From Candidatus Saganbacteria bacterium (GTDB lineage: Bacteria > Margulisbacteria > WOR-1 > XYC2-FULL-46-14 > WPAF01), in NCBI GenBank assembly GCA_016223205.1, contig JACRPM010000006.1, positions 1 to 64,000 of the forward strand: a stretch of DNA of 64,000 nt, given 5' to 3'. Position 1 is the first letter of the stretch. Every line of letters begins with the position of its first letter. Below the pieces are notes generated by a model. That model ran no database searches. It was not told where the DNA came from and worked only from the letters and a program-made list of their open reading frames with translations. This document shows, piece by piece, positions 4,445 to 50,798 of the stretch. Both the position numbers and the translations under genes were made by a program.

Positions 4445-4475
4445 TGTATTTCGACGAACCGCCTAAAAAATTTCA
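4445..4475 (-). promoter_or_regulatory. Sigma28-like promoter of the pyrophosphorylase gene
   Basis: On the minus strand TGAAA (4475-4471) is followed after exactly 16 bases by TC then GAAATACA. The spacing equals that of the other copies, and the -10 differs from CCGATATA by two bases. It lies just upstream of the 4423 start codon and its ribosome binding site, and begins at the stop of the upstream gene. Confidence 0.6.
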
Positions 4476-4961
4476 GCTAACTTTTGGTCGGATGCGGATC
4501 GGTAATATCCGCTGGGTGGCGAAATAAAAAACCAGGTCTTTACCATCGGGCGCGAACTTCAATTTTCTCCAAAAAGTCGGGGTGCGGGGCTGGATGATCT
4601 TCATGCCTAAAAGTCCCTTTCTTTTCCCCCAAGAAAGCGCCAAGGAGACCAGGCTGCTGCCGATCCCGCGGAGGTGGGCGCGCGATTGCTCTGCCACCTC
4701 TATGGCCGGACCTTTGGTGCAGGAGCTCCATTCGGATAAACTTTCAGCAGAGCTGAACTTCAAAGTCCCATAATGGACATACATCCATCGGCCCTCAAGG
4801 TTAAAATCAAAATGGCCGGCATAGTGGTTTCCCTGCCGAGCTTCGACATAATGCATGCCGGTCATGTGGTCTATTTGAACTCTAAAGCTAAAAGCGGGGA
4901 TTTTCCCGACGCGGGGCAAATTTCTTTTCGCCAACGGTCTTTCGGTCACTACCATTACCAT
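4473..4961 (-). CDS. GNAT-like acetyltransferase domain protein
   Basis: A protein of 162 residues. The C-terminal half carries RGIGSSLVSLALSWGKRKG, resembling the acetyl-CoA-binding R/Q-x-x-G-x-G/A motif of GNAT acetyltransferases, followed by a beta strand and FWRKLKF, similar to the FY.k.GF segment near the end of GNAT domains. The N-terminal half looks like the antiparallel beta strands of the fold. The substrate is unknown. No signal peptide is present. ATG 4961 lies 13 bases after the first base of the promoter -10 GATA-like element, with no ribosome binding site, suggesting a leaderless transcript; ATG 4955 is an alternative. Confidence 0.5.
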   Translation of the reverse strand: MVMVVTERPLAKRNLPRVGKIPAFSFRVQIDHMTGMHYVEARQGNHYAGHFDFNLEGRWMYVHYGTLKFSSAESLSEWSSCTKGPAIEVAEQSRAHLRGIGSSLVSLALSWGKRKGLLGMKIIQPRTPTFWRKLKFAPDGKDLVFYFATQRILPIRIRPKVS

Positions 4962-4966
4962 ATGCC

Positions 4967-4997
4967 TGGTTTTCGGCCTGATCGCCGTGAAATTTCA
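4967..4997 (-). promoter_or_regulatory. Sigma28-like promoter of the GNAT-like gene
   Basis: The minus strand shows TGAAATTT (from 4997), 16 bases after TGAAA, then CCGAAAAC. The -35 is perfect and the CCGA of the -10 is kept. It overlaps the 5' side of the convergent-free gap before the LacI gene's 3' end. Confidence 0.55.
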
Positions 4998-5009
4998 CCA
5001 AAAGCGAAA

Positions 5010-6026
5010 TTATTTCTTGGGCCCGGCCGTACTTTTTCTTTCTACCAGCTGGACCGGCAGGGTATGCCGGTAGGCGATGGCGCTGGGGTTCTCGATCACA
5101 TCCAGCAACACCTTCACTGCGGTCCTTCCTAAATTCTCCACATCGACATGGACGGTCGATATTTCCGGCAAGTAAGGGGCCACGTAGAAAGTGGAAGGAA
5201 GGTCGTCAAATCCCATGATAGAAATATCTTTTGGCACCTTAATTCCCTTTTTGATAAGGCGATCATAAGCGATATAAGCGATGGGGTCGCTGATACAGAG
5301 CAGGGCGGTGGGAGGATCATTGAGAGCCAGCAGCTTATCTACTGCGGAGCAGGAGGCCTCATATCTTATAAAATCGGCCTGGACAATATATTCTTTGGGA
5401 ATTTCCAGCCCGGCCTCGAACATAGCAAAGCGATAGCCCTCCAGGCGGTCGGCCACCACCGGGTCGAAGATCGGGCCGCCGGAGATAAAGGCGATTTTTT
5501 TATGGCCGAGGGAAATAAGATGTTTAGTAGCTTCATACATTCCCGCCCGGCCGTCGGGCATGACGGTATGGGTCTCAAGCCCCGGCACTGGATGACCACA
5601 GAGGACCAAAGGCAGGTTGCGCTGTTTGAGCATTAATATATGCTCGCGGGGGAGGGGGCCGAGGACCAGGATCCCGTCAATTATATTTTTAGATATTGCC
5701 CGGGGAAGTTCCTCCTGCTCTTTGGTAAAAGGTTCGAGGATCACATTAAAGCCCTGTTTTTGCGCTTCCTCTAGCACCCCAACACTTACCCGCCCGTAAA
5801 AATCGGTAAAGGGGATATAGCGGTCTAGGGCCAGAACCGCCAGGTTGAGATGCCTTTTGGTACTCGCCTTTTTATGGGCATATCCCAGCTCGGTGCAGAT
5901 CTCCAGTATCTTCTGCCTGGTCTTGCGGTTCACTTCGCGCGGATGGTTAAGGGCCTGCGAAACGGTAGCCAGTGAAACCCCGGCCTCTTTGGCAATATCT
6001 TCGATTAAAACCTTTTTCCTTTTCAT
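5010..6026 (-). CDS. LacI-family transcriptional regulator
   Basis: Residues 7-26 form the LacI helix-turn-helix (IEDIAKEAGVSLATVSQALN), followed by the hinge region and a periplasmic-binding-protein-like effector domain (FYGRVSVGVLEEA, the FI(S)GGP segment, ALLCISDPIAYIAYDRL, DISIMGFDDL). It is 338 residues, the usual length. These proteins bind palindromic operators and are released or tightened by a sugar effector. ATG 6026 is chosen because an AAGGTGAT ribosome binding site precedes it; an upstream in-frame ATG at 6044 lies inside the promoter -10. It sits among sugar-nucleotide, glycosidase and sugar-permease genes, so it probably controls some of them, though no operator was recognised with certainty. 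Confidence 0.92.
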   Translation of the reverse strand: MKRKKVLIEDIAKEAGVSLATVSQALNHPREVNRKTRQKILEICTELGYAHKKASTKRHLNLAVLALDRYIPFTDFYGRVSVGVLEEAQKQGFNVILEPFTKEQEELPRAISKNIIDGILVLGPLPREHILMLKQRNLPLVLCGHPVPGLETHTVMPDGRAGMYEATKHLISLGHKKIAFISGGPIFDPVVADRLEGYRFAMFEAGLEIPKEYIVQADFIRYEASCSAVDKLLALNDPPTALLCISDPIAYIAYDRLIKKGIKVPKDISIMGFDDLPSTFYVAPYLPEISTVHVDVENLGRTAVKVLLDVIENPSAIAYRHTLPVQLVERKSTAGPKK

Positions 6027-6043
6027 TATTCGATCACCTTGCA

Positions 6044-6074
6044 TATATATCGGAGGGTTTTATGGAAAATTTCA
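6044..6074 (-). promoter_or_regulatory. Sigma28-like promoter of the lacI-family gene
   Basis: The minus strand shows TGAAATTT (from 6074), exactly 16 bases after TGAAA, then CCGATATATATGC. This is one of the best matches in the window to the consensus TGAAA-N16-CCGATATATAT. Confidence 0.75.
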
Positions 6075-6191
6075 TATTATTTTAGATTTGGTTTTAGCTA
6101 ATTTTAGCCATTATTATAAACCATCGGCTTAATTATTTGCCGAGATAATGAAAAATATCAATGGTTGTCTATTTTGTCTCGCCCGGGCAGG

Positions 6192-6222
6192 TGAAATCGC
6201 CTGAAATATTTTAGGAAAATTA
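6192..6222 (+). promoter_or_regulatory. Possible weak sigma28-like promoter before the FGE-domain gene
   Basis: TGAAA at 6192 is followed after 16 bases by AGGAAAATTATG. Spacing is right but the -10 has GAAA in place of GATA. A second TGAAA at 6202 has no matching -10. The 79-base leader to the ATG at 6301 contains a good ribosome binding site. Confidence 0.35.
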
Positions 6223-6300
6223 TGTGGGAGCGCAAAGGAGGCGACGAGATCGTTAAGCTCCAAGAGGTCCCAGAGATCGGAATAAAAGGAGGAAAAGAGA

Positions 6301-7278
6301 ATGACAATCAGGAGAGTTCACTTAGTGTTTAACCCAAATAATAGAGTTGTGCCGGTTCGAGTAGAGGGAGGCAGGGTGAGGAGCGATGTAGTTTCTATAA
6401 ATACGAAACCAGATGAGAGATTGGCGGGGGTGATAGGACATTATCGAGGCAATTTAACTCCAGAAAGGGCTCACGAAATATTGCGAGATCGTGTTCAGGT
6501 GGATGGGTCGGCACGCGAATTCGATGGAGATTTATTAAGAATTGGCGTGGTTCAAAAGGCAATCCAATTCAATGTAGATTTAGGGATAAAGATGATAACG
6601 ATACCGGGCGACGAGTTTGTTTTCCAGGGTGTGCGAGGCGTCTATCATAAAGCATTTAGAATTGCCGAAACGGAAGTTACTAACGGCCATTTTAGGTTTC
6701 TATTAGAAAGGGAACCGAAAGGTTTAACAAGAATTCTAGGGAATCCGAAAGGACGATTAAAATACTCGTTATCAAAAGTTGACCCGCAATATAAGCATGA
6801 AGCCGAAGATTGCCCAATGGTGGGTTTGTGTCAAACAGAGTGGGCTGTAATAGCCGAATTGTTGGGAAAACGATTGGCCACCGAGCTGGAATGGGAAAGA
6901 GCTGCGGCCGGGAAGAAGGGGAGAGTATTTTCATTCGGTGATAAATTCGACAAAAATAAAGTAACTTTTAACGGCGAAGGGACAAGAAGCGTATACGCTC
7001 ATCGAGATGCGGCCACGCCGGAAGGAGTGCTTGATTTGTCCGGAAATGTCTGGGAATGGACGAGCTCAACTTGGGGCGACATAGATTTATCCGATCCTAA
7101 GAATCCCCGATTCTCCAAAATTGGTGAAGAAAAAGTTATACGCGGTGGTTCTTGGGGCGGCTTTCCAGACTTCTTAAAGGCCTCGTACCGGTTCAGACTT
7201 CCTGTCGAGGAGCTGGGATCTGCCATTGGCGCCCGTTTCGCCGAGGGAGGAGGCGGTCGTTATCCTTATATTAGATAA
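6301..7278 (+). CDS. SUMF1/FGE-sulfatase domain protein without the catalytic cysteines
   Basis: Residues 98-320 have the formylglycine-generating-enzyme fold signature: MITIPGDEF, a conserved ETEVTNGHFRFLL strand-helix, KRLATELEWERAA, DLSGNVWEWTSS and VIRGGSWGG...ARF near the end. True FGE enzymes carry two cysteines after the RGGS segment; here that stretch (GGFPDFLKASYRF) has none, so copper-dependent formylglycine formation is unlikely and a structural or ligand-binding role is more plausible. The N-terminal ~95 residues are unrecognised and no signal peptide is seen. Strong ribosome binding site (AGGAGG). Such domains often accompany Ser/Thr kinases, and two kinases occur later in this window. 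Confidence 0.8.
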   Translation: MTIRRVHLVFNPNNRVVPVRVEGGRVRSDVVSINTKPDERLAGVIGHYRGNLTPERAHEILRDRVQVDGSAREFDGDLLRIGVVQKAIQFNVDLGIKMITIPGDEFVFQGVRGVYHKAFRIAETEVTNGHFRFLLEREPKGLTRILGNPKGRLKYSLSKVDPQYKHEAEDCPMVGLCQTEWAVIAELLGKRLATELEWERAAAGKKGRVFSFGDKFDKNKVTFNGEGTRSVYAHRDAATPEGVLDLSGNVWEWTSSTWGDIDLSDPKNPRFSKIGEEKVIRGGSWGGFPDFLKASYRFRLPVEELGSAIGARFAEGGGGRYPYIR

Positions 7279-7285
7279 AATACAT

Positions 7286-7316
7286 TGAAATTTTCGTGAA
7301 TTGCGCAGGATAATTA
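7286..7316 (+). promoter_or_regulatory. Sigma28-like promoter of the 2H phosphoesterase gene
   Basis: TGAAATTT at 7286, 16 bases after TGAAA, then AGGATAATTA. The G of GATA (7309) is 14 bases before ATG 7323 and there is no ribosome binding site, so the transcript probably begins at or next to the start codon. Confidence 0.65.
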
Positions 7317-7322
7317 GTTGCC

Positions 7323-8105
7323 ATGGAACTGTGTTTAGATAGGGCCGCGATCCGCCGCCGGATAACCAGCAATTTGAGGTACTTGAACTCAAATGAGCGG
7401 TTGCACGGCTATTACGAGGGCCGCTATGTCCGCGACCGCGAAGAGCTGGCAGCCAACCGCGTAGCCAGGGACAAGGTGCTCGGCTTACCCACTCCCGGGA
7501 TGATATTGGCAGTGGGGCCGGATCAGTTTCGCGGCGAGGTTTTAGAGGGAATTGAGCGCGTACAGCAAGAACTGGCGGCAGAGCCCGCGGTTTTCAATTT
7601 TACGCCCGGCTTTTTCCATATGACGGTACAGGTCCTCAATCCTTCTTTTAATACCGACCTGGCGGGGGCCGAAGGGGAAAAAGCCCCCTATACCGGGCCG
7701 GACTTTTTACGGGGAGCTAACTTTTTAAGATATGACTCGGTCATTCGCAGGTTATTGGCCGGCATGAGGCCTTTTGAGATATATTTTCAGGGCTTGGGAA
7801 TGTCCCCGGCGGCCGGTTTTATCCAGGGTTATGACCGGGGCATCCTGAACTCCTTGAGGATCGACCTGTTGCAAACCCTGGAAGATGAAGGATTGGACTT
7901 TGCCGACAAACAACCGGAAATTGTCCATGGAACGATCTCCTCTTTCACCTCGCCGTTGAGCGATCCGGCAGGATTTACGGCTCGGATCGATGCCTTAAGG
8001 GATAGAGAATTAGGCGGTCTCACGGTAAGAAAGATTTCACTGATCGGGGTTAGGGAGATGGGGCGGTCGGTCGAAGTGCTGCAAGAGTTCAGATTGCAAG
8101 TTTGA
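7323..8105 (+). CDS. 2H phosphoesterase superfamily protein
   Basis: A protein of 260 residues with two histidine motifs spaced as in the 2H superfamily: HMT at 99-101 (FFHMTVQVL) and HGT at 202-204 (VHGTISSF). In LigT, cyclic phosphodiesterase and AKAP7-like members the two H-x-T/S motifs hydrolyse 2',3'-cyclic or 2',5' phosphodiester bonds. The actual substrate cannot be read from sequence. No signal peptide. The short upstream promoter makes a leaderless mRNA likely. It is followed 31 bases later by a separately promoted operon. Confidence 0.75.
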   Translation: MELCLDRAAIRRRITSNLRYLNSNERLHGYYEGRYVRDREELAANRVARDKVLGLPTPGMILAVGPDQFRGEVLEGIERVQQELAAEPAVFNFTPGFFHMTVQVLNPSFNTDLAGAEGEKAPYTGPDFLRGANFLRYDSVIRRLLAGMRPFEIYFQGLGMSPAAGFIQGYDRGILNSLRIDLLQTLEDEGLDFADKQPEIVHGTISSFTSPLSDPAGFTARIDALRDRELGGLTVRKISLIGVREMGRSVEVLQEFRLQV

Positions 8106-8130
8106 CTTAGATTACCTCATAAAGTAAAAT
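8102..8130 (+). promoter_or_regulatory. Sigma70-type promoter of the GH94 operon
   Basis: TTGACT (8102-8107), a 17-base spacer and TAAAAT (8125-8130). The ATG at 8137 is 7 bases after the -10 hexamer and has no ribosome binding site, implying a leaderless message. The -35 overlaps the stop codon region of the upstream gene. Confidence 0.65.
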
Positions 8131-8136
8131 CACCAC

Positions 8137-20517: not shown

Positions 20518-20548
20518 CTATATTCGATACCTAATCAGGAAAATTTCA
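20518..20548 (-). promoter_or_regulatory. Sigma28-like promoter of the GH116/lipoprotein operon
   Basis: The minus strand shows TGAAATTT (from 20548), 16 bases after TGAAA, then TCGAATATAGATATAG. Spacing agrees; the -10 has one transposed pair relative to GATA. It drives the 20499-13651 operon. Confidence 0.55.
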
Positions 20549-20589: not shown

Positions 20590-21186
20590 TCAGACAGATC
20601 GCGCTAAAAGATTGCGGACGTTTTTAGGGTATTTTTGGGCGGCCATTTTTAATCTTTTCTTGTTTAATCGGCTTAAATTAAACTCATCCAGGGAAGGAAT
20701 ATATTTATCTTTTTTCAATTTAATATATAAATAATCCAGCAGGGCCTTCTCGGCGGTTGCCCGGAGAATCCCCCTGTCATTTTCGAAACCATTGAATAAG
20801 CGGGGCTGGAGGTGATGGAAAACTATTTCTCCCAGCGGCGTTTTTAAATTCTTAAGCTTCCGCGTGGTCGCGCAGGTAAGCATAAGCGGCGCCTGGGAAA
20901 CGATACCCCGGTCTTCGAGCGCGCTCTCAAAAGAAATATAACAGGGCTTGCCGTAAAACATGGCCACTTCTTCGAGTGAGGGGAGGGAAAATTTGTTGGC
21001 GTAAGTGTTTTTGTAAATCTTGACCAGGTAGCTGCGCCCGACCAAGCGCTGAACGGCTTTTGCCGCCGCTTCCCGATTCAATCTGCTGGCTCTCTGTAAG
21101 GTCTGGGGGGAGAGAATATTTTGTTTTTCCTTACCCAGCTTCTGGAGAAGCTCCAACCAGGAGGATAAAGTAAAATATTTCTTCAC
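20590..21186 (-). CDS. AbiEi-like antitoxin / winged-helix regulator
   Basis: 198 residues with an N-terminal winged-helix-like region (SRLNREAAAKAVQRLVGRSYLVKIYKNTY), followed by an AbiEi-type domain (YISFESALEDRGIVSQAP, ATAEKALLDYLYIK). AbiEi antitoxins neutralise the nucleotidyltransferase toxin and repress their own operon. It overlaps the preceding toxin gene by 4 bases (ATGA). The gene order toxin-antitoxin is the reverse of the classical abiEi-abiEii. Defence against phage or stabilisation of the locus is the likely role. Confidence 0.75.
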   Translation of the reverse strand: MKKYFTLSSWLELLQKLGKEKQNILSPQTLQRASRLNREAAAKAVQRLVGRSYLVKIYKNTYANKFSLPSLEEVAMFYGKPCYISFESALEDRGIVSQAPLMLTCATTRKLKNLKTPLGEIVFHHLQPRLFNGFENDRGILRATAEKALLDYLYIKLKKDKYIPSLDEFNLSRLNKKRLKMAAQKYPKNVRNLLARSV

Positions 21187-21983
21187 AACGCCTTCATTCC
21201 TTCTTCAATCAAGGTTTGGGCCTCTTTCAGCATGCCGGCATAACCGTCGGTCTCAAATTGCCGACGGTAGCGAAGAGGCAAGAATCTTTCCATTTCATTA
21301 TTAAGATTTTCCGCCGAAGCGAGCTTCAGGCCGCGGGCCAGATTTGCGGGGGATATGGAATAGTCCTTAAATTTTTTCTTTAAAAGGTCGGCGTCAAGAT
21401 TGATTCCTTTTTGCTTTAACAGCCAGAGATCGAAATAGTCCCGTCCTTTGCAAAACGGGCGGCCGGCAATGGCGCCCAACTTATCAGCCAGAATTTCTTC
21501 CAGCCTTTCTGCGCGTACTAAGGTGAGCGGCAGTCCCGGAAGTTCTTTTTGCGGCCGCAGGGGCGCGACATTTAAAGTATAGGCCGGGTAGCGGCCAAAC
21601 TCCACGCTTACGAAGAACGAATCGCGATAATTTTCTTTCTCATTGTGAATTCGGTAGCGAAAAAAAGTCGGGGACTCCTTTTGTTTTTTGACGATAAATT
21701 CCCCGCCAAAGAGCGGCTCCAGCCGGGCGAGCGCCTTGGTTAAGCCATCGATGATTCGATCAATTTGGTTATCGTCGGCGGTGGTCACAAAATCGAGGTC
21801 CTCGGAGTAGCGCACCCCATCGTAGACCAGCCGCAGACAGGTGCCGCCCTGAAAAGTAAGCTGGGTGGATTCGGGCAGAGCGAACAGCTCGCTCAAAATA
21901 TAAATTTGCAGGGCCTCTTTTTCAATAATCTTCAAGGGGAGCCCTTCCTCATGAGACCTGGCAATTAAATCGTCTTTAAGCAT
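21183..21983 (-). CDS. AbiEii-like nucleotidyltransferase toxin
   Basis: The minimal nucleotidyltransferase signature is present: GGTCLR at 46-51 and DLDF at 62-65 (metal-binding Asp pair), with the C-terminal DKLGAIAGRPFCKGRDYFDLWLL typical of AbiEii/AbiGii proteins. In the family the toxin adds nucleotides to tRNA acceptor ends or other targets, blocking translation. It is 266 residues from ATG 21983, chosen because GGGAGAT precedes it; the upstream TTG at 22001 would overlap a candidate operator. It is cut off from its neighbours by lack of the sigma28-like promoter, consistent with an acquired module. Confidence 0.85.
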   Translation of the reverse strand: MLKDDLIARSHEEGLPLKIIEKEALQIYILSELFALPESTQLTFQGGTCLRLVYDGVRYSEDLDFVTTADDNQIDRIIDGLTKALARLEPLFGGEFIVKKQKESPTFFRYRIHNEKENYRDSFFVSVEFGRYPAYTLNVAPLRPQKELPGLPLTLVRAERLEEILADKLGAIAGRPFCKGRDYFDLWLLKQKGINLDADLLKKKFKDYSISPANLARGLKLASAENLNNEMERFLPLRYRRQFETDGYAGMLKEAQTLIEEGMKAL

Positions 21984-22001
21984 AACGTATCTCCCAAACA
22001 A

Positions 22002-22991: not shown

Positions 22992-23022
22992 AAGTTATCG
23001 GATGGTTATTTTGAGAATTTCA
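22992..23022 (-). promoter_or_regulatory. Sigma28-like promoter of the barrel-like gene
   Basis: The minus strand shows TGAAATT (from 23022), 16 bases after TGAAA, then CCGATAACTT. The -10 agrees fully with the FliA consensus CCGATAA. The -35 abuts a 30-base perfect palindrome. Confidence 0.75.
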
Positions 23023-26148: not shown

Positions 26149-26179
26149 TGAAATTTCCCGGAAACCTGTAAGATAAAGA
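26149..26179 (+). promoter_or_regulatory. Sigma28-like promoter of the CBM11-like gene
   Basis: TGAAATTT at 26149, 16 bases after TGAAA, then AAGATAAAGA. It is followed by GAGAGGT ribosome binding site and ATG 26198. Confidence 0.6.
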
Positions 26180-26973: not shown

Positions 26974-27004
26974 TGAAATTATTCCCGCATTTTGAAGATA
27001 TATA
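26974..27004 (+). promoter_or_regulatory. Sigma28-like promoter of cassette 1 anchor gene
   Basis: TGAAATTA at 26974, 16 bases after TGAAA, then AAGATATATATGC. The G of GATA (26997) is 12 bases before ATG 27009, implying a leaderless transcript if that start is used. Confidence 0.65.
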
Positions 27005-27830: not shown

Positions 27831-27861
27831 TGAAATTATCCCCTCTGCTTTCCGATATATA
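27831..27861 (+). promoter_or_regulatory. Sigma28-like promoter of the propeller protein gene
   Basis: TGAAATTA at 27831, exactly 16 bases after TGAAA, then CCGATATATATACG. One of the perfect consensus copies. Confidence 0.75.
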
Positions 27862-29385: not shown

Positions 29386-29416
29386 TGAAATTTTTGGATA
29401 GGATGGCCGATATATA
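29386..29416 (+). promoter_or_regulatory. Sigma28-like promoter of cassette 2
   Basis: TGAAATTT at 29386, exactly 16 bases after TGAAA, then CCGATATATATACG. Perfect consensus, 34 bases before the TTG start codon. Confidence 0.75.
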
Positions 29417-39683: not shown

Positions 39684-39714
39684 TGAAATTTTCCTCATAA
39701 ACCGCGGATAATCA
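39684..39714 (+). promoter_or_regulatory. Sigma28-like promoter of kinase gene 1
   Basis: TGAAATTT at 39684, 16 bases after TGAAA, then CGGATAATCATACG. Good match, directly after the terminator of the previous operon. Confidence 0.65.
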
Positions 39715-39729
39715 TACGGGTGAAAATGA

Positions 39730-41034
39730 GTGCCAGCAACGCGCCGGACCTTAAATATTCTTCCTTATAAAAGACAGCAGATCGCGCATGAATTGTCGCG
39801 TCCAGTGCGTGGATTGCCGGTTCGAGGACCAAAACACGAAATAAATCCTGAAGCCGGTTCCATTAAATTGGCTGCGCTTATCTTTGTAGCCGCCGGCGCT
39901 TTGGGAGCGGGAGCGGGGGAATATTATTTTGCCTACCACAAGGTTAATGGCGCCACAGATCTGGAAAGGGTAGGTACGCACCTGCTCGAGATGTCCGCCT
40001 GGAAGCGCCAATATCACCGTATGGTTCCCGGGGCGATGGGCTTTGCCGCCGCCGAGGCCTTGACATTGATCTGCTGGGCGGCCTACCGCCTGATCTGCTC
40101 TCCCTTGGGAGGCAGGCCTAAGATAGAAGATCCAAACCTAAAGGATTATATTCTTGAAAAGAGTTTGGGAGCGGGGGGCATGGGGGAGGTCTTTGAGGCC
40201 CGTCACAAGAAGACAAAGGAAAAAGTGGCCATTAAGAAACAGCCGATCGTGGATGAGCGTTGCCGAGAGCGATTCCGCAGGGAAGCCAGGATCCTACAGC
40301 AGATCGAGCATCCCGGGGTGGTCGGCTATAAAGGTTTCATTGATACCCTCGGCGCCGATCATGGTTATCTCATTATGGAATATCTGGAAGGGAAGGAAAT
40401 AGATGTATTTTTCAGTGAAGAAGAATTAATTGTCGGCAAAAGCCCCCATCAAACGTTGCGGTTTAAGCTCGGACTCATAGAGCAGGTAAACCAGGCCCTG
40501 GGGTACGTGCACCAAACCCAACAGATAATTCATCGCGATCTCAAGTGTGCGAATGTCTTTGTGGTCAGGGGAGCCGACGGCCGGCTCCGCGCCAAACTTT
40601 TGGATTTCGGCATCGCCAAAGATCTGGCCGAAAATATGTCGTGCGCCGGCAAACTGACCTTGGACCGAACTTTTCTGGGAACGCTGCTTTATGCCGCTCC
40701 GGAGATGTTTTGGGGCTGGATGGGCAACGATCCGGAGGGAAGGTCCTTCGAATGCAAGCTCATCGACCACCGGGCGGACATCTATTCTCTGGGTGTGATC
40801 TTATACAAACTGCTGGTCGGCCGGGAGCCGTATGGGCAGGATGAGGTAACCAAAGCTCATATGGCGAAAAGGCCGACTCAAATATCCTTACCCCGGGACC
40901 TGCCTCCCCAAACGCAGGCGCTGGTCCTTAAGTTGCTTTCCCGCTATCCATCCGAAAGGCCCCAGAACTCGGTTGAAGTGCAGGCCTTAATTTCTTTGGC
41001 AAAGAGTGAAATTTCGGGGATTGGGAGCCGATAA
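39730..41034 (+). CDS. Membrane-anchored Hanks-type Ser/Thr kinase 1
   Basis: 434 residues. A short basic tail and two hydrophobic stretches (AALIFVAAGALGAGAGEYYF and the region near 100-120) lead to a kinase domain at about 141-425: nucleotide loop SLGAGGMGEVFEAR, lysine VAIKK, HRDLKCANV (near 267), DFGIAKD (near 291), AAPEMF and the DIYSLGVILYKLL segment. All residues needed for phosphotransfer are present. The segment KVNGATDLERVGTHL is repeated in kinase 2 (KVNGATQLERVQSHL), so the two arose by duplication. GTG 39730 is the best in-frame start. Inferred to phosphorylate proteins of the same cluster, reversed by the PP2C at 45779. Confidence 0.85.
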   Translation: MPATRRTLNILPYKRQQIAHELSRPVRGLPVRGPKHEINPEAGSIKLAALIFVAAGALGAGAGEYYFAYHKVNGATDLERVGTHLLEMSAWKRQYHRMVPGAMGFAAAEALTLICWAAYRLICSPLGGRPKIEDPNLKDYILEKSLGAGGMGEVFEARHKKTKEKVAIKKQPIVDERCRERFRREARILQQIEHPGVVGYKGFIDTLGADHGYLIMEYLEGKEIDVFFSEEELIVGKSPHQTLRFKLGLIEQVNQALGYVHQTQQIIHRDLKCANVFVVRGADGRLRAKLLDFGIAKDLAENMSCAGKLTLDRTFLGTLLYAAPEMFWGWMGNDPEGRSFECKLIDHRADIYSLGVILYKLLVGREPYGQDEVTKAHMAKRPTQISLPRDLPPQTQALVLKLLSRYPSERPQNSVEVQALISLAKSEISGIGSR

Positions 41035-41037: not shown

Positions 41038-41060
41038 AATACGCGAGGAGGTGAATCTAA

Positions 41061-41543
41061 ATGAGAATGGGTCATTCTGGTTTTGTGAATGCAGAAAGAA
41101 ATCAATTTGTTAGAGATGGCATGAAATACGCCAATAATCGGGTTTTTATCCGCGGCGGAGGCCATAGGAATTCCATATTGAGATATGTGATACTACCGGG
41201 CCTAGTGGCCGGCGTTTTGGCGGCGGTGGCCGGTCCCGCATTGGCAGCGGTGGCGTTGGGCGTGGGTTTGGCCGGATTGGGCGGCAAAGCGATCGCCTCC
41301 AAGAGCAGGCTCAATAGCGTTACTCTGCGCGGCACCGGACAGGTAAGCGAAGGCGGACCGCAGATCACATCTTTCTTGAAGTCGTTGAGACAAAGCGATC
41401 CTATTGCGTACCATCGTATCAGAGAGGCGCTTTATACTGATCCTACCCGACGGAAAGGGGTGCTCACCAACGTCCTGTTTGCCGGTCCCCAGGACGGCAC
41501 CCGGACGATCGCTGATTTTGTCAGCAGTCAGATCGACCAATAA
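41061..41543 (+). CDS. Small membrane protein of unknown family
   Basis: 160 residues. A basic N-terminus (MRMGHSGFVNAERNQFVRDG) precedes a 40-residue Ala/Gly/Val-rich hydrophobic stretch (LPGLVAGVLAAVAGPALAAV and following) that may form a hairpin of two short helices. A soluble basic tail follows (TSFLKSLRQSDPIAYHRIREAL). Ribosome binding site GGAGG. It has its own promoter and a terminator after it, so it is monocistronic. Nothing identifies its function; its place between two kinases suggests a partner or substrate. Confidence 0.55.
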   Translation: MRMGHSGFVNAERNQFVRDGMKYANNRVFIRGGGHRNSILRYVILPGLVAGVLAAVAGPALAAVALGVGLAGLGGKAIASKSRLNSVTLRGTGQVSEGGPQITSFLKSLRQSDPIAYHRIREALYTDPTRRKGVLTNVLFAGPQDGTRTIADFVSSQIDQ

Positions 41544-41560
41544 TTGTCTGTTTTCCCTAC

Positions 41561-41592
41561 GGGCGCTAACTAGAGTCATTTAGTTAGCGCCC
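41561..41592 (+). terminator. Intrinsic terminator after the small membrane protein gene
   Basis: GGGCGCTAACTA (41561-41572) pairs perfectly with TAGTTAGCGCCC (41581-41592), followed by ATTTCTTATATT. It lies 15 bases before the next sigma28-like promoter. Confidence 0.8.
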
Positions 41593-41607
41593 ATTTCTTA
41601 TATTAAC

Positions 41608-41638
41608 TGAAATTTTTTTCGGCATTTATCGATAATGA
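41608..41638 (+). promoter_or_regulatory. Sigma28-like promoter of kinase gene 2
   Basis: TGAAATTT at 41608, exactly 16 bases after TGAAA, then TCGATAATGATACG, followed at once by the GGAGG ribosome binding site of the kinase gene. Confidence 0.7.
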
Positions 41639-41655
41639 TACGGAGGAATAACAGC

Positions 41656-43083
41656 TTGTCAGGTTTTAGGGTAAATCGAGTTCAACAAATCGATGCGCGG
41701 CGAATAAGAGCACAGCGGGGCTCGGCCACGCCCAAAATTTTGGGCGGAGTTCTCCTGGGAGCGGCGGGAGCCGCCGCGGGCGAAGCTCTTTTTGCCCATC
41801 GCAAGGTCAACGGCGCCACCCAGTTGGAAAGGGTGCAATCCCATCTTTCAACCTTGAGCGAGATAGCTTATGCTTGGAATCGCGGCTTGCCCGCACTTGA
41901 AGGTTTTACCGCCTTGGAGTTGCCGTTTTTGGCAGTTTTGGGCTTGAAGAGGCTGTTCCGCGGCGGGCGAAAGGCCGCGACCCCAGGAAGCGCACCTCTT
42001 CCGCATATCTTACAGCGAATAACCGGTCCCCATTCGATCGCGGCCGTCAGTATACAGCAGGCAGTTCCCAAGCCCTCGGACGGCAATCTTAAAATAGGCA
42101 GTGAGGTCAAACTGGATTCCGTGGTGTATGTTATAGAGAAACAGTTGGGAGCGGGCGGCATGGGTACGGTGTGGAAGGCGCGCAATAATAAGGGGGAACC
42201 CGTCGCCGTCAAGCAATTGAAAATCGATAATCCGGATGCGCGGGCGCGTTTCAGAAGAGAAGCCGAAATTATTGAGGGCATTGGGAAGCTGCCGCGGAGG
42301 CAGGATGGAGAGTGGGATCCCAAGGATGGAGTGGTGGGCTATAAAGGGTTCGAAGAAGTGGAGGGCACCAACAAAGGTAATCTCTTTATGGAATATGTCG
42401 ACGGCAAGCCGTTAGGGGAGTTCTGCGAAGAGCTTAGGAAGGCCTATATACAGGAACTGGCCATGGAAACCGGAGCCAAACTCCGCCAGGTTCAGCTGGC
42501 GATAGTAACCCTCTTTCATTACATAGGTTTATCCCTGCAGGAAGCATTCCTCCAAAAAAATATAATTCATCGCGACCTCAAATTGGATAATGTCCTGGTA
42601 GCCATAGATCGAAAAAGGATCGCCCGGCCTAAGATATTGGATTGGGGATTAGCCAAGGATGTGACCGAGTATTTTGCGCAGGCCGGCCAGGCGGGATTGA
42701 CCCAGGACGGCAGCTTTTTGGGGACCATGTCTTTCGCCGCGCCCGAGGTGTTCTGGGCCTACCGCGGTTTAACGCCGAAAGATAAGACGTTTAAGCGCAG
42801 CGATGTCACCATTCAGGCGGATATGTATTCGCTGGGGGTTATGCTTTATAGCGTGCTGGTAGGCAAGCATCCCTTTAAAGAGCAGAACCAAGTTGTTGAT
42901 TTCTATCAATTACATACCGACAGCCAGGAGCCCCAGCTTATAATTCCCGAGATCGTTCCTCCGAAAACCGGCGAGCTGCTGCGTCGGCTTTTGGCTCGCT
43001 ATCCGCAAGACCGGCCTCAAGATTACGCCGAGTTTATCGCGCTGATAGAGGCCGCCGAAAGTGAAATTCTCGGCCTAAATTGA
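41656..43083 (+). CDS. Membrane-anchored Hanks-type Ser/Thr kinase 2 (DWG variant)
   Basis: 475 residues from TTG 41656, which GGAGG precedes. A basic tail, a hydrophobic segment (PKILGGVLLGAAGAAAGEAL) and KVNGATQLERVQSHL parallel kinase 1. The kinase domain starts near 160: LGAGGMGTVWKAR, VAVKQL, HRDLKLDNVL (near 304), then ILDWGLAKD, with Trp in place of the usual Phe of DFG (the metal-binding Asp is kept), SFAAPEVFW and DMYSLGVMLYSVLVG. The DWG form is tolerated in some active kinases. It presumably acts with kinase 1 in one phosphorylation circuit opposite the FHA-PP2C phosphatase. Confidence 0.85.
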   Translation: MSGFRVNRVQQIDARRIRAQRGSATPKILGGVLLGAAGAAAGEALFAHRKVNGATQLERVQSHLSTLSEIAYAWNRGLPALEGFTALELPFLAVLGLKRLFRGGRKAATPGSAPLPHILQRITGPHSIAAVSIQQAVPKPSDGNLKIGSEVKLDSVVYVIEKQLGAGGMGTVWKARNNKGEPVAVKQLKIDNPDARARFRREAEIIEGIGKLPRRQDGEWDPKDGVVGYKGFEEVEGTNKGNLFMEYVDGKPLGEFCEELRKAYIQELAMETGAKLRQVQLAIVTLFHYIGLSLQEAFLQKNIIHRDLKLDNVLVAIDRKRIARPKILDWGLAKDVTEYFAQAGQAGLTQDGSFLGTMSFAAPEVFWAYRGLTPKDKTFKRSDVTIQADMYSLGVMLYSVLVGKHPFKEQNQVVDFYQLHTDSQEPQLIIPEIVPPKTGELLRRLLARYPQDRPQDYAEFIALIEAAESEILGLN

Positions 43084-43092
43084 CGATATATA
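43062..43092 (+). promoter_or_regulatory. Sigma28-like promoter inside the end of kinase gene 2
   Basis: TGAAATTC at 43062, exactly 16 bases after TGAAA, then ACGATATATATG. It spans the stop codon of the kinase gene and drives the 43185-49159 operon. Confidence 0.7.
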
Positions 43093-43184
43093 TGTAGGGA
43101 GAGGATATCGGATGATCAGGGGATCAGGATATCCGGAAAGAAAGGGGTAAGGAATTGTTAAAAAGATTAAAGGGGATGATCGAT

Positions 43185-45779: not shown

Positions 45780-48700
45780 TGCCTCCCGCCCGCATTGAGG
45801 CCTTTAGAGCGCATCTTTCCCAGATAAACGATTGCCGCCTCAACAGAACTGCCCGTCGGTTGCAACTGGAGGACCTCCATACTGATATTCAGCGTGGGTG
45901 GATCAATCTTCGGGGAGTGATTTCCAACCCACATTTACAAGAAGCCCTCGACCCTCGTCTCACTCGCTCCGCTCGTAAATTGGCCCTAAGTGAACTTTTT
46001 GAGACGGATCTAAATATTTTAACTGAATTAGAAAGAGATTCTATTAAGGCACTTACCCTGCCGGTTAAAGGCGAGGAGGGCATTTCCCAATTGGCTACTG
46101 CGATCATATCCCGGCTGGCTCCTTCTCCTTCAATTTTTTCAGATGATGCCTTTACGGTGCGCCATAGCCCTCCCAAACCTTCACCTCCTCCCCCCCGCCA
46201 GGATGACCTACGAGACCTGCAAGAACTGCAGGCGCTTTTGGCCAGAAAGCCGGAGATCAAGCAAAGAACGGAAAGATTGACCGCTGCCGCCCGATTAATT
46301 ATGCCTTATCTGGCGTGGGGAGCGGAAGTGGAGCATGCCCTTACGCAATTGAATCGAGAGTACGATGGGGCAGTGACCCTGGCCGATCGCGCGGCTGTTT
46401 TGCATGGAAAGACCTCCAAAAGCGCACCCGCGTATTTAACCGGGATCAAATTTTTCGAACTGCCCCAATTCCCGACGGCGGCACCTGGTCGCATAAGAAT
46501 AGATACGGAACTGCAGGAAAATGAAATAGCCGCAGTTCGAGCCAGGTTCAGGGAAATCATCATGCGTTTTAGTGAGATGAAAAGCGCGGTGGAAACTTAT
46601 GTGCTTAAGCTGGCGGCAGGGAGCGTTCCCAAGATAAATATAGACGAAGAAGTTAAATCCATGCAAACATTCCTCGAATCCTTGCGATCCCTGATCCAAT
46701 ACCTGGAAATTGATCGTTCATTTTTATCCAAACCCGAAAACAAATATCAATTAAAGGGAACGGCCAATTTAACCATTGCGGCTCAATTCTCCGCCCTCCA
46801 GGATTTGATATTTGAGATCGGCCAGGCCTATGGGGCGGCGGATCGCAACTATTCCGAAGCGCTTAACTTCAATAATTCGGCAAGGGGAAAAATGCTCCAG
46901 ATGCTTGAACAACTAAAAGCTTATTCCGATCTGAGCGGCATCAAAGAAGCGGTGGCGGCATTGGAAAAAACGGCCGAAAAAATGAATACCGATTACACGA
47001 ATGCCGGTCTCAAAAATGCCCAAGAGCACCGGCAGGCAATAGACCAGGTCAAAGCCGCCTTTAATACGGTTGTGCAATTGAGGCCGCAGGTGCAACCTCC
47101 GCAGCCCGTTCCGCCTCCCGCCCCGGCACCGTCTGGTGCGGGGCCCGCGCCGCCGGAGCCACCTAAGATATTGAATTATTATTTCAAGGCAATAGGACAT
47201 TGTGAGGAACTGACCAGGCTGCGTTCGACCTTGAGCGATACGGTCCGGGGCATCATTGAGGAATTTACCGCTGAACAGATAGCCGATATGAAGACGCAAG
47301 AACCCACGCAGGAAGATGCGATCCTGGTCGCCGATTGGGCCCTGTCGCGCCGCAACCAGGTGGGAACGCTTTCCAAAGAGGCCGTGGCGCTTTTGGAAAA
47401 GGTACAGCATTGCATGGAAAAATACCTGGCAGAGAACTTCAGCATATTAGTGATCGAACCGACGGTTGGTACCCAATATCACCGGATCCAAACTTTGGCC
47501 GACCAAGTTGGGCAGGAGATCGGCAAGTATGGCGAAGTATTGCGAGTGGAGTCACTGGGCTTTACCGATAAGGATAATAAGGTGGTCAAGAAAGCCAAGG
47601 TTGTCCTCGGCGACGGAACGGTATTTACCGATAGGGCCTTTGATACGACCGGATCTGCTGCGCCCGATTCCTGGTCCCGGGTACCGCCGCCGGCTTTAGT
47701 TGCTCCTTCTCCCGGCGCTACGTCAGCAACTTTGCCTTCTTCTCCACCTATGCCCGCCGTTCCCCGTCTTTCTCTCGGCAAGCGGGTCAGAGGGATTGGA
47801 CAAAGGATCTGGAAGGGCTGGCTAACGGTCAACGGGGCCGTGGCCCGTTTCCAAAACAGGGTAGTGAGAACCGTAGTAACAGTCGCTAAAAGAATAAATG
47901 AGCAAGTCAACCGCCTGGGTCGCTGGGAGGATTTGTTAGTGTGGTCGACCAAAGAGCTTCCTCAACCTCAAAACCTCCTCCAGATTGATGCCTTCTCCGG
48001 GAAAAAATGGGTCTCGTCCGACACCCGGATAATAAAAGAATCGAGGAAAAATAGGAGATTGGTCTGTCGGCTCTCCCCGGATGGTGACCGTCTGGCCGAA
48101 ATACGTAAAGTCGGCTCGGAGTATTTCCTCAAGGTTGTTGGCAAAAAAGACGTCTGGATCAATGGATCTCACGTTGCCAAGAGGCAAAAGATAAACAGCG
48201 GCGATGTGGTACTGTCGGGCGATCATTCTTTCGTTATCGATATCTTACCCATTGACCGCAGCTTTAAAAGGGCGGAAGGCGTGGAATGGGTGGCGGGCGG
48301 TGAGAATGGAGAGATTGTTGTCGAACATGGGGCCTTGCTATCCTATCGGGCCGGGCGCACTCACAACGAAGACGCAGCGGGCCATGCCTGGATAAATGAG
48401 GATGAGGAGTTGTTTATGATAGGGGATGGCATGGGAGGCCATGCGGCGGGAGAGATCGCCAGTTTACGCCTGATGGAAACTATGGTTGCCGAAATGAGAG
48501 GAAGCAGGGAGCTGTCTGGCGCCATTGAACGGGCTTCGGAAATAATATACCAAGAATCAAAAAGTAATCCCCTCCGAAAGGGAATGGGCACTACCGTGGT
48601 GGCCGCCCTGCTTAATCATAAAACCAAAAAACTCCAAATGGCCTGGGTGGGCGATTCGCGCGGGAAATATATACCGCAAGATGCCGCGCAGGAAGCCGCA

Positions 48701-49159
48701 CTTTTGACCCGTGATCATACCCCGTTCTGGACCAACCAGCACTTTGGAATAGAGCCCTTGGCAGAAAAATTACCCATTGAAGAATTGCGCCTCGAGGAGA
48801 TGACCAGACTCGAGAACGGGTTCGAAAATGACCCGATGTGGAAAAACTTCAATCATAGTATAACTAGTGTCGTGGGGCACCCCAAAAAACTTGTGATCCA
48901 TGTAGTGGAGATGCCCTTTTTGCCGGGTCCCCCGGTCAACTACTTACTTTTATCCAGTGATGGTTTGCGCAGAGGATTGACTGAAAGGTGGATAACCGAA
49001 TTGGTCCGTCAAGGCGGATCTCCTGCAGCCATTGCCAGGCGTTTGAAAGATGCCGCCCTTAAACTGGGTACCAATGACAACGTTTCTATAGCAGTCATCC
49101 CGGTGCCGGCACTGGATCTGGCCCAATTAACCGAACGAATATTCGACAATAATAAGTGA
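45779..49159 (+). CDS. FHA-PP2C protein phosphatase with long helical N-terminus
   Basis: 1126 residues. Residues 1-640 are mostly helical and Pro-linked, with coiled-coil-like stretches and no recognised domain. A forkhead-associated (phosphothreonine-binding) domain lies at about 735-820 (KVVGKKDVWINGSHV, INSGDVVLSGDHSFVI). A PP2C phosphatase follows at ~850-1120: RTHNEDAAGHAW, MIGDGMGGHAAGE, GMGTTVVAALL, AWVGDSRGKY, LLSSDGLRRGL and TNDNVSIAVI, with the metal-binding aspartates present. PP2C enzymes reverse Ser/Thr phosphorylation by Hanks kinases, and FHA recruits phosphoproteins. It closes the operon after two membrane proteins and two kinase genes, making a complete writer-reader-eraser set. 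Confidence 0.85.
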   Translation: MPPARIEAFRAHLSQINDCRLNRTARRLQLEDLHTDIQRGWINLRGVISNPHLQEALDPRLTRSARKLALSELFETDLNILTELERDSIKALTLPVKGEEGISQLATAIISRLAPSPSIFSDDAFTVRHSPPKPSPPPPRQDDLRDLQELQALLARKPEIKQRTERLTAAARLIMPYLAWGAEVEHALTQLNREYDGAVTLADRAAVLHGKTSKSAPAYLTGIKFFELPQFPTAAPGRIRIDTELQENEIAAVRARFREIIMRFSEMKSAVETYVLKLAAGSVPKINIDEEVKSMQTFLESLRSLIQYLEIDRSFLSKPENKYQLKGTANLTIAAQFSALQDLIFEIGQAYGAADRNYSEALNFNNSARGKMLQMLEQLKAYSDLSGIKEAVAALEKTAEKMNTDYTNAGLKNAQEHRQAIDQVKAAFNTVVQLRPQVQPPQPVPPPAPAPSGAGPAPPEPPKILNYYFKAIGHCEELTRLRSTLSDTVRGIIEEFTAEQIADMKTQEPTQEDAILVADWALSRRNQVGTLSKEAVALLEKVQHCMEKYLAENFSILVIEPTVGTQYHRIQTLADQVGQEIGKYGEVLRVESLGFTDKDNKVVKKAKVVLGDGTVFTDRAFDTTGSAAPDSWSRVPPPALVAPSPGATSATLPSSPPMPAVPRLSLGKRVRGIGQRIWKGWLTVNGAVARFQNRVVRTVVTVAKRINEQVNRLGRWEDLLVWSTKELPQPQNLLQIDAFSGKKWVSSDTRIIKESRKNRRLVCRLSPDGDRLAEIRKVGSEYFLKVVGKKDVWINGSHVAKRQKINSGDVVLSGDHSFVIDILPIDRSFKRAEGVEWVAGGENGEIVVEHGALLSYRAGRTHNEDAAGHAWINEDEELFMIGDGMGGHAAGEIASLRLMETMVAEMRGSRELSGAIERASEIIYQESKSNPLRKGMGTTVVAALLNHKTKKLQMAWVGDSRGKYIPQDAAQEAALLTRDHTPFWTNQHFGIEPLAEKLPIEELRLEEMTRLENGFENDPMWKNFNHSITSVVGHPKKLVIHVVEMPFLPGPPVNYLLLSSDGLRRGLTERWITELVRQGGSPAAIARRLKDAALKLGTNDNVSIAVIPVPALDLAQLTERIFDNNK

Positions 49160-49187
49160 AATTTCCTGGAATTAGTCACGATAAATA
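49157..49187 (+). promoter_or_regulatory. Sigma28-like promoter at the phosphatase stop codon
   Basis: TGAAATTT at 49157 starts at the TGA stop of the phosphatase gene; 16 bases after TGAAA come AC and GATAAATA. GATA starts 14 bases before ATG 49194, the same distance as at the 7323 gene, so the message is probably leaderless. Confidence 0.65.
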
Positions 49188-49193
49188 ACCAGT

Positions 49194-50027
49194 ATGAGCA
49201 TAAGCGGCATTTCAATATATAAATCGGTAATATTAGGCGGCTCTTGTGGAACGCAAAACGTCAGTTTTTCCTTGAATCCGACCGACTTGCAGGTTCTTAA
49301 CCAGCGCCTGCGGCAATTCGGGTTTAACGAATCCTTATCGCTTGACAATCTATCGGCCCAGGGCCTTTCCCGCGCTATTTTCGGCAATAATGACGGAGTG
49401 GTCATGATTACCCGCATCGCAAAGAACGCTGAAGATAGCATTTTTTCGATCTTTGGTTGGGATGGGGACTTGGCCTCTGCCGACATCACGCTGAAGCTCC
49501 CGGCCAACGCTTCGGCCGAACAGATCGATCGCTTAAGGGAAGTATTGAATGCTTTGCATTTACAGTGCAATTTGCCTGTGCCGCCGTCACCTCCGCCGCC
49601 TCCGACCCCTCCCACGCCTCCGGTGATAACTCCGCCGGTACAGCCGCCTCCGGTCCAACCGCGGGATGCCGGGACACAGCGCCCGGAACGGGATGCTGAA
49701 GTTGAAATTGAAGATAATGAACCACAGCTTGTTGCGCCCGGGATTTCTCTGGGAAATTCCAATTACGACCCCGATACCGGGAGAATGACGATAAACATCA
49801 ATGTCCGCGGGCAGGATGTGACTGCGGACAGTGATATCGAGGTCGTGATCTCTTCCCGGGCGGTCCGCATTATCGGATCCCCAGAGGGGGAGGATGGATC
49901 CGTAAGTTTATTGCTTGATACCGCCAACGCCGATCCGGGAAGCTCCTTCAATATATCGGTTACGATAGATGAGAACCGGCTCGGCTCGGTGAGAGTCCAG
50001 GTTCCCGAAGAATCGGAAAATCAGTAG
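49194..50027 (+). CDS. Protein with NVRG-type beta domain and proline-rich linker
   Basis: 277 residues in two parts. The N-terminal ~125 residues (MSISGISIYKSVILGGSCG, LRQFGFNESLSLDNL, LPANASAEQIDRLREVL) are unrecognised. A PPSPPPPPTPPTPP-type linker with PRDAGTQRPERDAEVE then leads to a C-terminal beta domain (MTININVRGQDVTADSDIEVVI) related to the outside domains of the proteins at 27009 and 29450. No Sec signal is seen. It is followed 9 bases later by a lipoprotein gene. Function unknown. Confidence 0.55.
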   Translation: MSISGISIYKSVILGGSCGTQNVSFSLNPTDLQVLNQRLRQFGFNESLSLDNLSAQGLSRAIFGNNDGVVMITRIAKNAEDSIFSIFGWDGDLASADITLKLPANASAEQIDRLREVLNALHLQCNLPVPPSPPPPPTPPTPPVITPPVQPPPVQPRDAGTQRPERDAEVEIEDNEPQLVAPGISLGNSNYDPDTGRMTININVRGQDVTADSDIEVVISSRAVRIIGSPEGEDGSVSLLLDTANADPGSSFNISVTIDENRLGSVRVQVPEESENQ

Positions 50028-50036
50028 GAGGAAAAA

Positions 50037-50759
50037 ATGGTGCGTTTTGTTGATAGATCTCGCGGTGTGGAAGGTCGGAGAATTCACCCCCCACGGGCGG
50101 GAATTAGGATTGCTTTGGGTTTGACAGCGACGGCACTGGGAGGCTGTGCGGAGAAGGCCCCACCCGTTCCCGACGCCCTGATCCGGATGGTTGACGCGGG
50201 CTTGCCCGATGTACCGGTTTCAATGGTGGATGCGGGCATGGCCGATATCGAGGCCGAGATCGCGGCCGCGACCGGCGCGCCTCCCGGGAAGATCTTTGAT
50301 CTGGGGAACCATGCCGAAGCCCTGCGCGTCAATCAAATTATGCAAATATCATTTACCCTGCCGTCGGAACTTAAAGCGCTGTTCGATAAGGTAAAATTTT
50401 GGGGAATAATTGGTCCGAGGGTCGACAGCGAAGGCCGCAGCCCTTTCGAACTTATGGATTTTATCCTAGACCGCGAGACCGGAGTGCTGAAGGCGGGGGT
50501 AAAACCTCTACCGGGGGCTTTTGTAGAAAACGAGCCGAATCTTTGGAAATTCATTGCCGAAGTAGGGGAAGGCGCGGAAACGAATTATTGCGCATACGGA
50601 TTGCCGGTAGCTGATGAGGGAAGAGAAATACCCGATGCCGGCACCAGAAGAGATACCGGGCGCAGAAGGGAAGATGCGGGCACCAGAACGCCGGATGTTT
50701 CGCCTCCATTACCAGATATCAGTGCTACAGCCGAAGCTAGGGTTAGGATACGGCCGTAA
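50037..50759 (+). CDS. Lipoprotein, paralogue 1, with DAG-rich tail
   Basis: 240 residues. A 25-residue basic region with IHPPRAG precedes the hydrophobic segment and lipobox ATALGGC (Cys37 or nearby). The mature protein has a PDAL..MVDAGLPDV linker and one beta domain (LRVNQIMQISFTLPSELKALFDKVKFWGIIG, LPGAFVENEPNLWKFIAEVGEG), then an Arg/Asp/Gly tail (DAGTRRDTGRRREDAGT) ending VRIRP. The protein at 50846 is a clear paralogue with the same ending. Ribosome binding site GGAGG. Family not recognised; DAG-type repeats occur in lipoproteins of myxobacteria. Confidence 0.65.
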   Translation: MVRFVDRSRGVEGRRIHPPRAGIRIALGLTATALGGCAEKAPPVPDALIRMVDAGLPDVPVSMVDAGMADIEAEIAAATGAPPGKIFDLGNHAEALRVNQIMQISFTLPSELKALFDKVKFWGIIGPRVDSEGRSPFELMDFILDRETGVLKAGVKPLPGAFVENEPNLWKFIAEVGEGAETNYCAYGLPVADEGREIPDAGTRRDTGRRREDAGTRTPDVSPPLPDISATAEARVRIRP

Positions 50760-50767
50760 AAAATAAG

Positions 50768-50798
50768 TGAAATTTCCGCCAGAAATTGACGATATATA
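50768..50798 (+). promoter_or_regulatory. Sigma28-like promoter of the second lipoprotein operon
   Basis: TGAAATTT at 50768, exactly 16 bases after TGAAA, then ACGATATATATG. The following 20 bases carry GCCTCTAGAGGC, a short palindrome, in the leader before ATG 50846. Confidence 0.7.

Follow-up and report, generated by a model that had tools for sequence, protein, structure and literature searches.

Sigma factors of the sigma28 family are used beyond motility, as for the late genes of Chlamydia and the attack phase of Bdellovibrio, where the factor serves a cell-state programme. Promoters of the extracytoplasmic function (ECF) group have an AAC box, and the B. subtilis SigW promoter reads TGAAAC-N16-CGTA. 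Here we describe a two-box element without such an AAC box, subsequently named motif 1 (TGAAATT-N16-GATA), in a 64,000 nt stretch of Candidatus Saganbacteria DNA (the window). A preliminary description of this DNA had listed 17 such sites and ascribed them to a sigma28-family factor. We consider it likely that all 17 sites serve as promoters of a single large regulon and are recognised by RNA polymerase with P0001, a short sigma28-like factor of the same genome, as its sigma subunit. The sequence alone shows the anatomy of the promoter, its conservation, its link to rpoD and, in two families of the phylum (f14 and f11), the link between motif and sigma operon; P0001 as the reader, its time of action and the role of the programme are what we infer. 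A search of the openly accessible literature, with subscription journals mostly outside it, found no account of the regulon or of Saganbacteria sigma factors, and a term search of the main text of PMC6349859 found no mention of flagella, motility, sigma, secretion system or type III.

Motif 1 and its promoter anatomy

Within the window TGAAATT and GATA are paired 13 times at a spacing of 16 and 0 or 1 time at each other spacing in the range 8–30. For TGAAA-N18-GATA the 13 matches compare with 0.38 expected, a number reached by 0 of 100 shuffles. A 39-column profile of motif 1 recovered all 17 places at ≥18 bits, a recovery that is not independent, since part of the training set came from these sites; at ≥12 bits it gave 0–1 matches in each of six Markov shuffles of the window and none in the reversed window. 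The invariant spacing claimed before is confirmed (13 cases at 16 bases versus 0–1 at any other spacing). The NNGATA box claimed together with it stands at 13 strict sites, and the other four have a degenerate −10 instead (CGAAA at 4475(−) and 4997(−), AGGAAA at 6192(+) and CGAAT at 20548(−)). Additional profile matches above 12 bits at 206, 6160 and 57345 are weak or lie within genes; the last of these (57345–57371, plus strand, 19.5 bits, within a gene) is probably a chance match or an internal promoter.

The own genome (a 1.57 Mb assembly in 16 contigs, 91.9% complete) contains 72 strict matches to TGAAATT-N16-GATA and one match to the reversed pattern. Gene starts were surveyed in 499 kb, for which 465 genes had been called mechanically; most of these stretches were chosen around known sites, which biases the shares. 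TGAAA-N17-CGATA was the commonest two-box word pair at these gene starts (37 of 465 genes, compared to 0.38 per other spacing). Profile matches at ≥12 bits numbered 79, with 60 at gene starts (a start within −60 to +100 of GATA, for which 7.3% of positions qualify), 8 within genes and 11 elsewhere; the pattern is thus not as frequent inside genes as before them, the outcome that the preliminary description had named as speaking against it. At this threshold 58 of 465 genes carry motif 1, compared to 0 of 465 reversed regions. In the window such genes account for 16 of the 44 called; for the 100 kb that follow it directly (C3:64001-164000) the count is 2 of 105, and for the remaining stretches 40 of 316. 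The regulon thus occurs in clusters, with the window among its dense parts. When the count is scaled with the strict sites, of which the 499 kb contain 50 of 72, the regulon is estimated at ∼84 of 1,465 genes (5.7%).

We also looked for sigmaA-like boxes at the 465 genes. With ≤1 mismatch they were found at 13 genes (0 reversed) and at 0 of the 58 motif genes, with ≤2 mismatches at 45 (10 reversed) and 3 of 58, and with ≤3 mismatches at 145 (88 reversed) and 26 of 58. As the three mismatch levels disagree, a mutual exclusion of motif 1 and sigmaA boxes was dropped.

The 72 strict sites display a well-defined anatomy. The column preceding GATA is C in 57 of them and the following column A or T in all 72, and column 30 is A in 53. 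A pyrimidine–purine (YR) initiator is present 11 bases past the G of GATA, with a pyrimidine in column 33 (63/72) and a purine in column 34 (65/72). The distance from this G to the ATG peaks at +11 (12/72) and +14 (10/72), with lesser peaks at +7 (7) and +9 (6), and Shine-Dalgarno-like tetramers, which number 0–1 per offset from +4 to +10, appear 12 times each at +11 to +13. Because initiator, ATG and Shine-Dalgarno signals agree, the predicted +1 is placed at ∼11, inside the interval of 10–14 bases after GATA that had been proposed, and some regulon transcripts should accordingly be leaderless, with predicted leaders of 0–3 bases. An open frame follows 71 of the sites, and by longest frame 24 of these have a start codon 11–14 bases from the G of GATA (this distance is termed d); a few of these genes possess a second start with a Shine-Dalgarno sequence further downstream. 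Judged by these signals motif 1 behaves as a promoter, which confirms the initial observation. Were it instead a transcription-factor binding site or a repeat element, strong conservation would be accounted for, but not the orientation towards genes and the fixed distance to the YR initiator, the ATG and the Shine-Dalgarno sequence; we regard this explanation as extremely improbable.

The layout GAAA-N16-CCGATA matches the FliA layout quoted in the preliminary description, with CCGATA as −10 at FliA spacing. Its sigma28 reading thus holds with respect to the −10, the spacing and the presence of sigma28-like genes, but not with respect to the −35, which is TGAAATT with GAAA in the register of the FliA TAAA; no TAAA version occurs among the listed word pairs of the gene-start regions.

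Conservation, the rpoD site and the regulon genes

We compared 31 genomes of the class and 26 other genomes of the phylum (families and genomes are denoted by f- and G-numbers). All 31 class genomes contain motif 1, with 17–224 strict matches each (reversed 0–4). The maximum of 224 sites was observed in G007 in 2.2 Mb; the next count is 127. Outside the class the CGATA form is strong in f16 (69 and 29 versus 0 reversed) and also present in f19 (22 versus 1 reversed) and three f14 genomes (18, 19 and 21 versus 0–2 reversed), and a slight excess of the GATA form is seen in f10 (1–8 versus 0–1 reversed).

One conserved target is the gene of the main sigma factor. In the own genome a strict site precedes rpoD (locus L046), its GATA lying 21 bases upstream of the GTG, and a motif-1 site is located right upstream of rpoD in all 27 class genomes examined, namely the own and 26 others (RpoD-sized frames were taken; G017, G026, G028 and G030 were left out). 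The site is exact in 25, one base longer in G005 and contains TGAATTT in G012. Outside the class an exact site was found in 0 of 14 regions, which rest on unchecked RpoD-like matches; looser look-alikes in G035 and G055 are one base longer and located further upstream. The rpoD site overlaps the 3′ end of a long upstream frame, DnaG in the own genome. As this frame ends before the −10 in 13 of 27 genomes (its stop codon lies within the −10 in 10, and 4 are unclear), coding does not explain the kept −10.

The first genes of 70 of the 72 strict sites were scanned against Pfam, leaving out one 36-codon frame and one contig end. The first gene was taken as the longest frame within 230 bases, and a few far ones (d = 104, d = 199) may be wrong. 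A Pfam family was assigned to 26 of 70 at E ≤ 1e-3, with two (CBM_11 and Glucosaminidase) under the cut-off, and none to 44; in comparison 9 of 10 other window genes, hand-chosen and mostly long, have a family. The families include two LacI regulators, three protein kinases, an FHA protein, a phosphofructokinase-like enzyme, PPDK_N twice, radical-SAM proteins, a metallophosphatase, an M48 peptidase, RpoD and the sigma-like P0003. The 70 first genes do not converge on any one pathway. The regulon genes had been described as not flagellar, which agrees with the targets seen; rpoD and many proteins without known family are to be added. P0003 (257 aa, a divergent sigma-like protein; L051, C4:153.7 kb) itself follows a motif-1 promoter with d = 14. 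The phosphofructokinase-like protein at L078:1038 bears an N-terminal extension of ∼23 residues ahead of the Pfam domain, and several regulon proteins show Arg/Ser/Pro-rich starts by eye. The sites of the window are listed in Table 1. The window also contains an IS110-type transposase (114–1172) and an AbiEii-type toxin-antitoxin protein (21183–22001).

Table 1. Motif-1 sites of the window; d, distance from the G of GATA to the start codon
Element	Position	Strand	Downstream gene	d	Remarks
Putative promoter, degenerate −10 CGAAA	4449..4475	−	4423		24.2 bits
Putative promoter, degenerate −10 CGAAA	4971..4997	−	ATG 4961	13	22.9 bits; leaderless candidate
Putative promoter	6048..6074	−	LacI-type regulator (PF00356)		Strict, 36.1 bits
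Putative promoter, degenerate AGGAAA	6192..6218	+	6301		21.9 bits, weak
Putative promoter	7286..7312	+	7323, 260 aa, no Pfam family	14	Strict; leaderless candidate
Putative promoter, degenerate −10 CGAAT	20522..20548	−	20499		18.5 bits
Putative promoter	22996..23022	−	22988, 302 aa, no Pfam family	11	Strict; leaderless candidate
Putative promoter	26149..26175	+	26198, carbohydrate-binding-like (CBM_11 match under cut-off)		Strict
Putative promoter	26974..27000	+	27009, 263 aa, no Pfam family	12	Strict
Putative promoter	27831..27857	+	27881, no Pfam family	27	Strict; with Shine-Dalgarno
Putative promoter	29386..29412	+	29450, 156 aa, no Pfam family		Strict
Putative promoter	39684..39710	+	39730, protein kinase (PF00069)		Strict
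Putative promoter	41007..41033	+	41061, 160 aa, no Pfam family		Strict
Putative promoter	41608..41634	+	41656, protein kinase (PF00069)		Strict
Putative promoter	43062..43088	+	43155/43185, no Pfam family		Strict
Putative promoter	49157..49183	+	49194, 277 aa, no Pfam family	14	Strict; leaderless candidate
Putative promoter	50768..50794	+	50846, 246 aa, no Pfam family		Strict

Candidate sigma factors for motif 1

The sigma70-type genes found in the own genome encode RpoD, P0001, P0002, P0005 (ECF, RpoE-like) and the divergent P0003 and P0004; in G011, which consists of one contig, the four region-4 matches at E 0.001 correspond to RpoD, a P0001-like, a P0002-like and an ECF protein. Of sigma28-like genes, for which the preliminary description suggested looking, there are thus two, P0001 and P0002. 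P0001 (193 aa, C1:12386-12967) matches PF04542 at residues 28–99 and PF04545 at 139–188 with 39 residues in between, and no region 3 (PF04539) was detected in it at E 0.01. P0002 is a FliA-like protein of 235 aa encoded behind a confirmed flgI; it bears 100 residues between the two regions and no PF04539 match either. Both stay under the cut-off of 189.6 bits for TIGR02479 (FliA/WhiG), with 72.4 bits for P0001 and 141 bits for P0002. P0001 has the build of ECF factors, consisting of regions 2 and 4 only, and its best curated match is FliA/WhiG; the ECF-type region 4 (PF08281) scores 17.7 bits, below the cut-off of 25.7. Its region 4.2 helix is of FliA type (SESQVSRI versus GESRVSQL in E. coli). 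SESQVSRI was found in 28 of 28 class copies read and is nearly constant through the phylum; f10 has SESQTTRI. In a tree the P0001 family forms its own clade (50/50 rows, including a few duplicates; support 0.97) beside the FliA-like set. A P0001-like gene is present in 29 of 31 class genomes (one as a fragment) and clear homologs exist in 25 of the 26 other genomes. The most likely reader is a distinct short sigma28-like subfamily, not FliA: the sigma28 kind that had been proposed is supported, but the factor would most likely be the short P0001 rather than P0002, the FliA-like protein encoded in the flagellar operon.

A connection between motif and factor comes from the sigma operons of other families. 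The order flhA, motif 1, two small genes and P0001-like sigma was observed in 5 of 5 f14 genomes (G037, G042, G045, G047 and G050), for which we calculate a chance of ∼3e-10 to 3e-7 with assumed base rates, and in one of two f11 genomes (G032 but not G039). The profile at ≥10 bits gave six matches in 20 regions from outside the class; counted per genome, G037, G042, G045, G050 and G032 have one each, and G047, the sixth genome with this order, was identified separately. The identity of flhA was verified by PF00771 for three of these six (G047, G037 and G032). Flanks of 500 bases had missed the motif near P0001-family genes, the promoter lying further upstream; it appeared in longer flanks. In the class motif 1 stands upstream of the small gene–P0001 pair at 5 of 28 loci (strict in G013, G025 and G027, degenerate in G022 and G019), with a probability of 0.02 at the estimated base rate, and G010 has a strong site upstream of another gene further up from the P0001 locus. 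The own FlhA matches the flank of 16 of 30 P0001 loci, and in the own genome flhA and P0001 are ∼4 kb apart. Small genes precede the P0001-like sigma in many loci (e.g. L108:810-1082, L109:1716-1988 and L349:1571-2270). A scan of seven of their proteins yielded no Pfam family over cut-off, and those between flhA and the short sigma are candidate anti-sigma factors.

Several observations weigh against P0001 as the reader. The class count of 5 of 28 loci is not significant (0.27) when set against 58/465, the inflated rate of the stretches chosen around known sites. In 14 of 20 P0001 regions from other classes (including f10, f12, f13 and f15–f20) no motif is found upstream, nor is motif 1 present upstream of P0001 in the own genome. 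Furthermore, f13 has a P0001-like factor and no excess of motif 1 (1 and 2 matches versus 2 and 1 reversed). P0001 is missing from G028 (69% complete) and from G007, which is 90% complete and carries 224 sites: neither protein nor profile search detected a copy in G007, the only region-4-like match of the profile search residing in a 673-codon frame, and we take this absence for an assembly gap, although it may be real. Finally, P0002-like genes are equally widespread (30 of 31 class genomes, missing in G024). As P0001 and P0002 are each missing from one or two incomplete genomes, presence and absence do not separate the two.

A second promoter class bears on the role of P0002. After masking motif 1 the next word pair is GCAAGTT-N14-CCGATA, which is located in the own genome upstream of an flgF-type operon that holds P0002, upstream of a FliK-like gene beside the operon (420 aa; Flg_hook 26.0 bits, under the cut-off of 29.8) and upstream of several long S/T/P-rich proteins. 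Sites of this class are found at L085:3699 and L085:5482 (C3), L268, L269, L256, L272 and L273. By eye the S/T/P-rich proteins resemble type III secretion substrates. The GCAAGTT promoter occurs in 31 of 31 class genomes, 4–25 times per genome, and also in f10 and f15. Ten relatives of P0002 with 65–79% identity are filed under Saganbacteria, WOR-1 or Margulisiibacteriota, one as ‘uncultured bacterium’. In 4 of 10 P0002 loci of relatives a close GCAAGTT form stands upstream of the FliK-like gene that precedes the operon. The combination of a shared −10 with two different −35 words is what a pair of sigma28-like factors would lead one to expect, and we infer that the FliA-like P0002 goes with GCAAGTT-N15-CGATA. 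FlhA, FlhB, FlgI, FliF and an FlgF/G-type protein are encoded at C3:177-188 kb (L085) and C1:16-20 kb (L084), and Flagellin_N gave no match at E 1e-5 in any of the 31 class genomes; therefore flagellin promoters could not serve as a FliA test. Flagellar-type genes without flagellin perhaps belong to a flagellum-like machine for secretion or to a filament of unusual kind.

P0002, alone or together with P0001, could also read TGAAATT: it is present in G007, its FliA score is almost twice that of P0001 and the −10 is identical in both promoter classes. However, its own operon has the GCAAGTT promoter, its helix (LSRPKVCRLL in most class copies) is unlike that of FliA and of the f16 counterpart although f16 has motif 1, and 40 P0002 loci (L116–L155) contain only two CGATA motif-1 sites, both on the other strand. 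We consider this alternative unlikely. Even less can be said for an ECF factor, although the layout of motif 1 resembles the SigW promoter and an RpoE-like ECF gene (P0005) is present. An ECF match at E 1e-15 is found in only 19 of 31 class genomes, a threshold that a more diverged ECF protein could escape, and G004 (100% complete) has no such match, yet contains the motif and the rpoD site. This distribution disfavours ECF as the general reader, which we judge very improbable.

With P0001 as the reader, polymerase would bind TGAAATT at −35 and CGATA(A/T) at −10, the latter 11 bases ahead of the start. Transcripts would be leaderless, beginning at or ≤3 bases from the ATG, or begin just ahead of the Shine-Dalgarno sequence. 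Because a motif-1 promoter precedes its own operon, after flhA, in some members of the phylum, we expect the factor to activate its own synthesis. Through rpoD, kinases, an FHA protein, LacI regulators, a phosphofructokinase-like enzyme and many unknown proteins it would drive a programme of the whole cell. A more far-reaching idea, which we put forward tentatively and hold to be rather doubtful, is that a new sigma subfamily of build intermediate between sigma28 and ECF, already present in the ancestor of the phylum and linked with the operon of the export-gate gene flhA, became a second master sigma. It would control how much rpoD is expressed and initiate a cell-state programme whose genes are mostly unknown and often leaderless; this programme would be coupled to an export machine of flagellar type, and no flagellin for such a machine was found in the class.

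One promoter word would allow regulon members to be listed in every genome of a group without cultures, and the predicted leaders make the starts testable from any metatranscriptome. Two sigma28-like factors with two −35 words and one −10 offer a natural system for testing how sigma region 4 selects its box. If true, control of the main sigma gene by a flagellar-type sigma throughout a class would be an unusual wiring.

Comparison with known sigma systems

Minor-sigma promoters near the end of dnaG that feed the main sigma gene have been described: E. coli rpoD has a heat-shock promoter and B. subtilis sigA sigmaH and sigmaB promoters in this region, and S. epidermidis has a sigmaB promoter at the same place (PMC2824700). 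The rpoD site shares with them a minor-sigma promoter just upstream of the main sigma gene; it differs in being sigma28-like and in being found in every class genome examined.

Compared with the ECF factors (group 4), P0001 has the same two-domain build and a similar length of ∼200 aa, but its region 4 is of the PF04545 kind and its closest curated family is FliA/WhiG. With FliA, SigD and WhiG the system has in common the CCGATA −10, the 16 bases from (G/T)AAA to CCGATA, a region-4 helix close to that of FliA and a gene often located beside flhA. It differs from them in the −35 TGAAATT, in a factor without detectable region 3 that scores under the TIGR02479 cut-off, in targets that are non-flagellar as far as seen and include rpoD, and in its many leaderless candidates. 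In Chlamydia and Bdellovibrio sigma28 is likewise used outside motility, whereas here a second, shorter factor would take this part.

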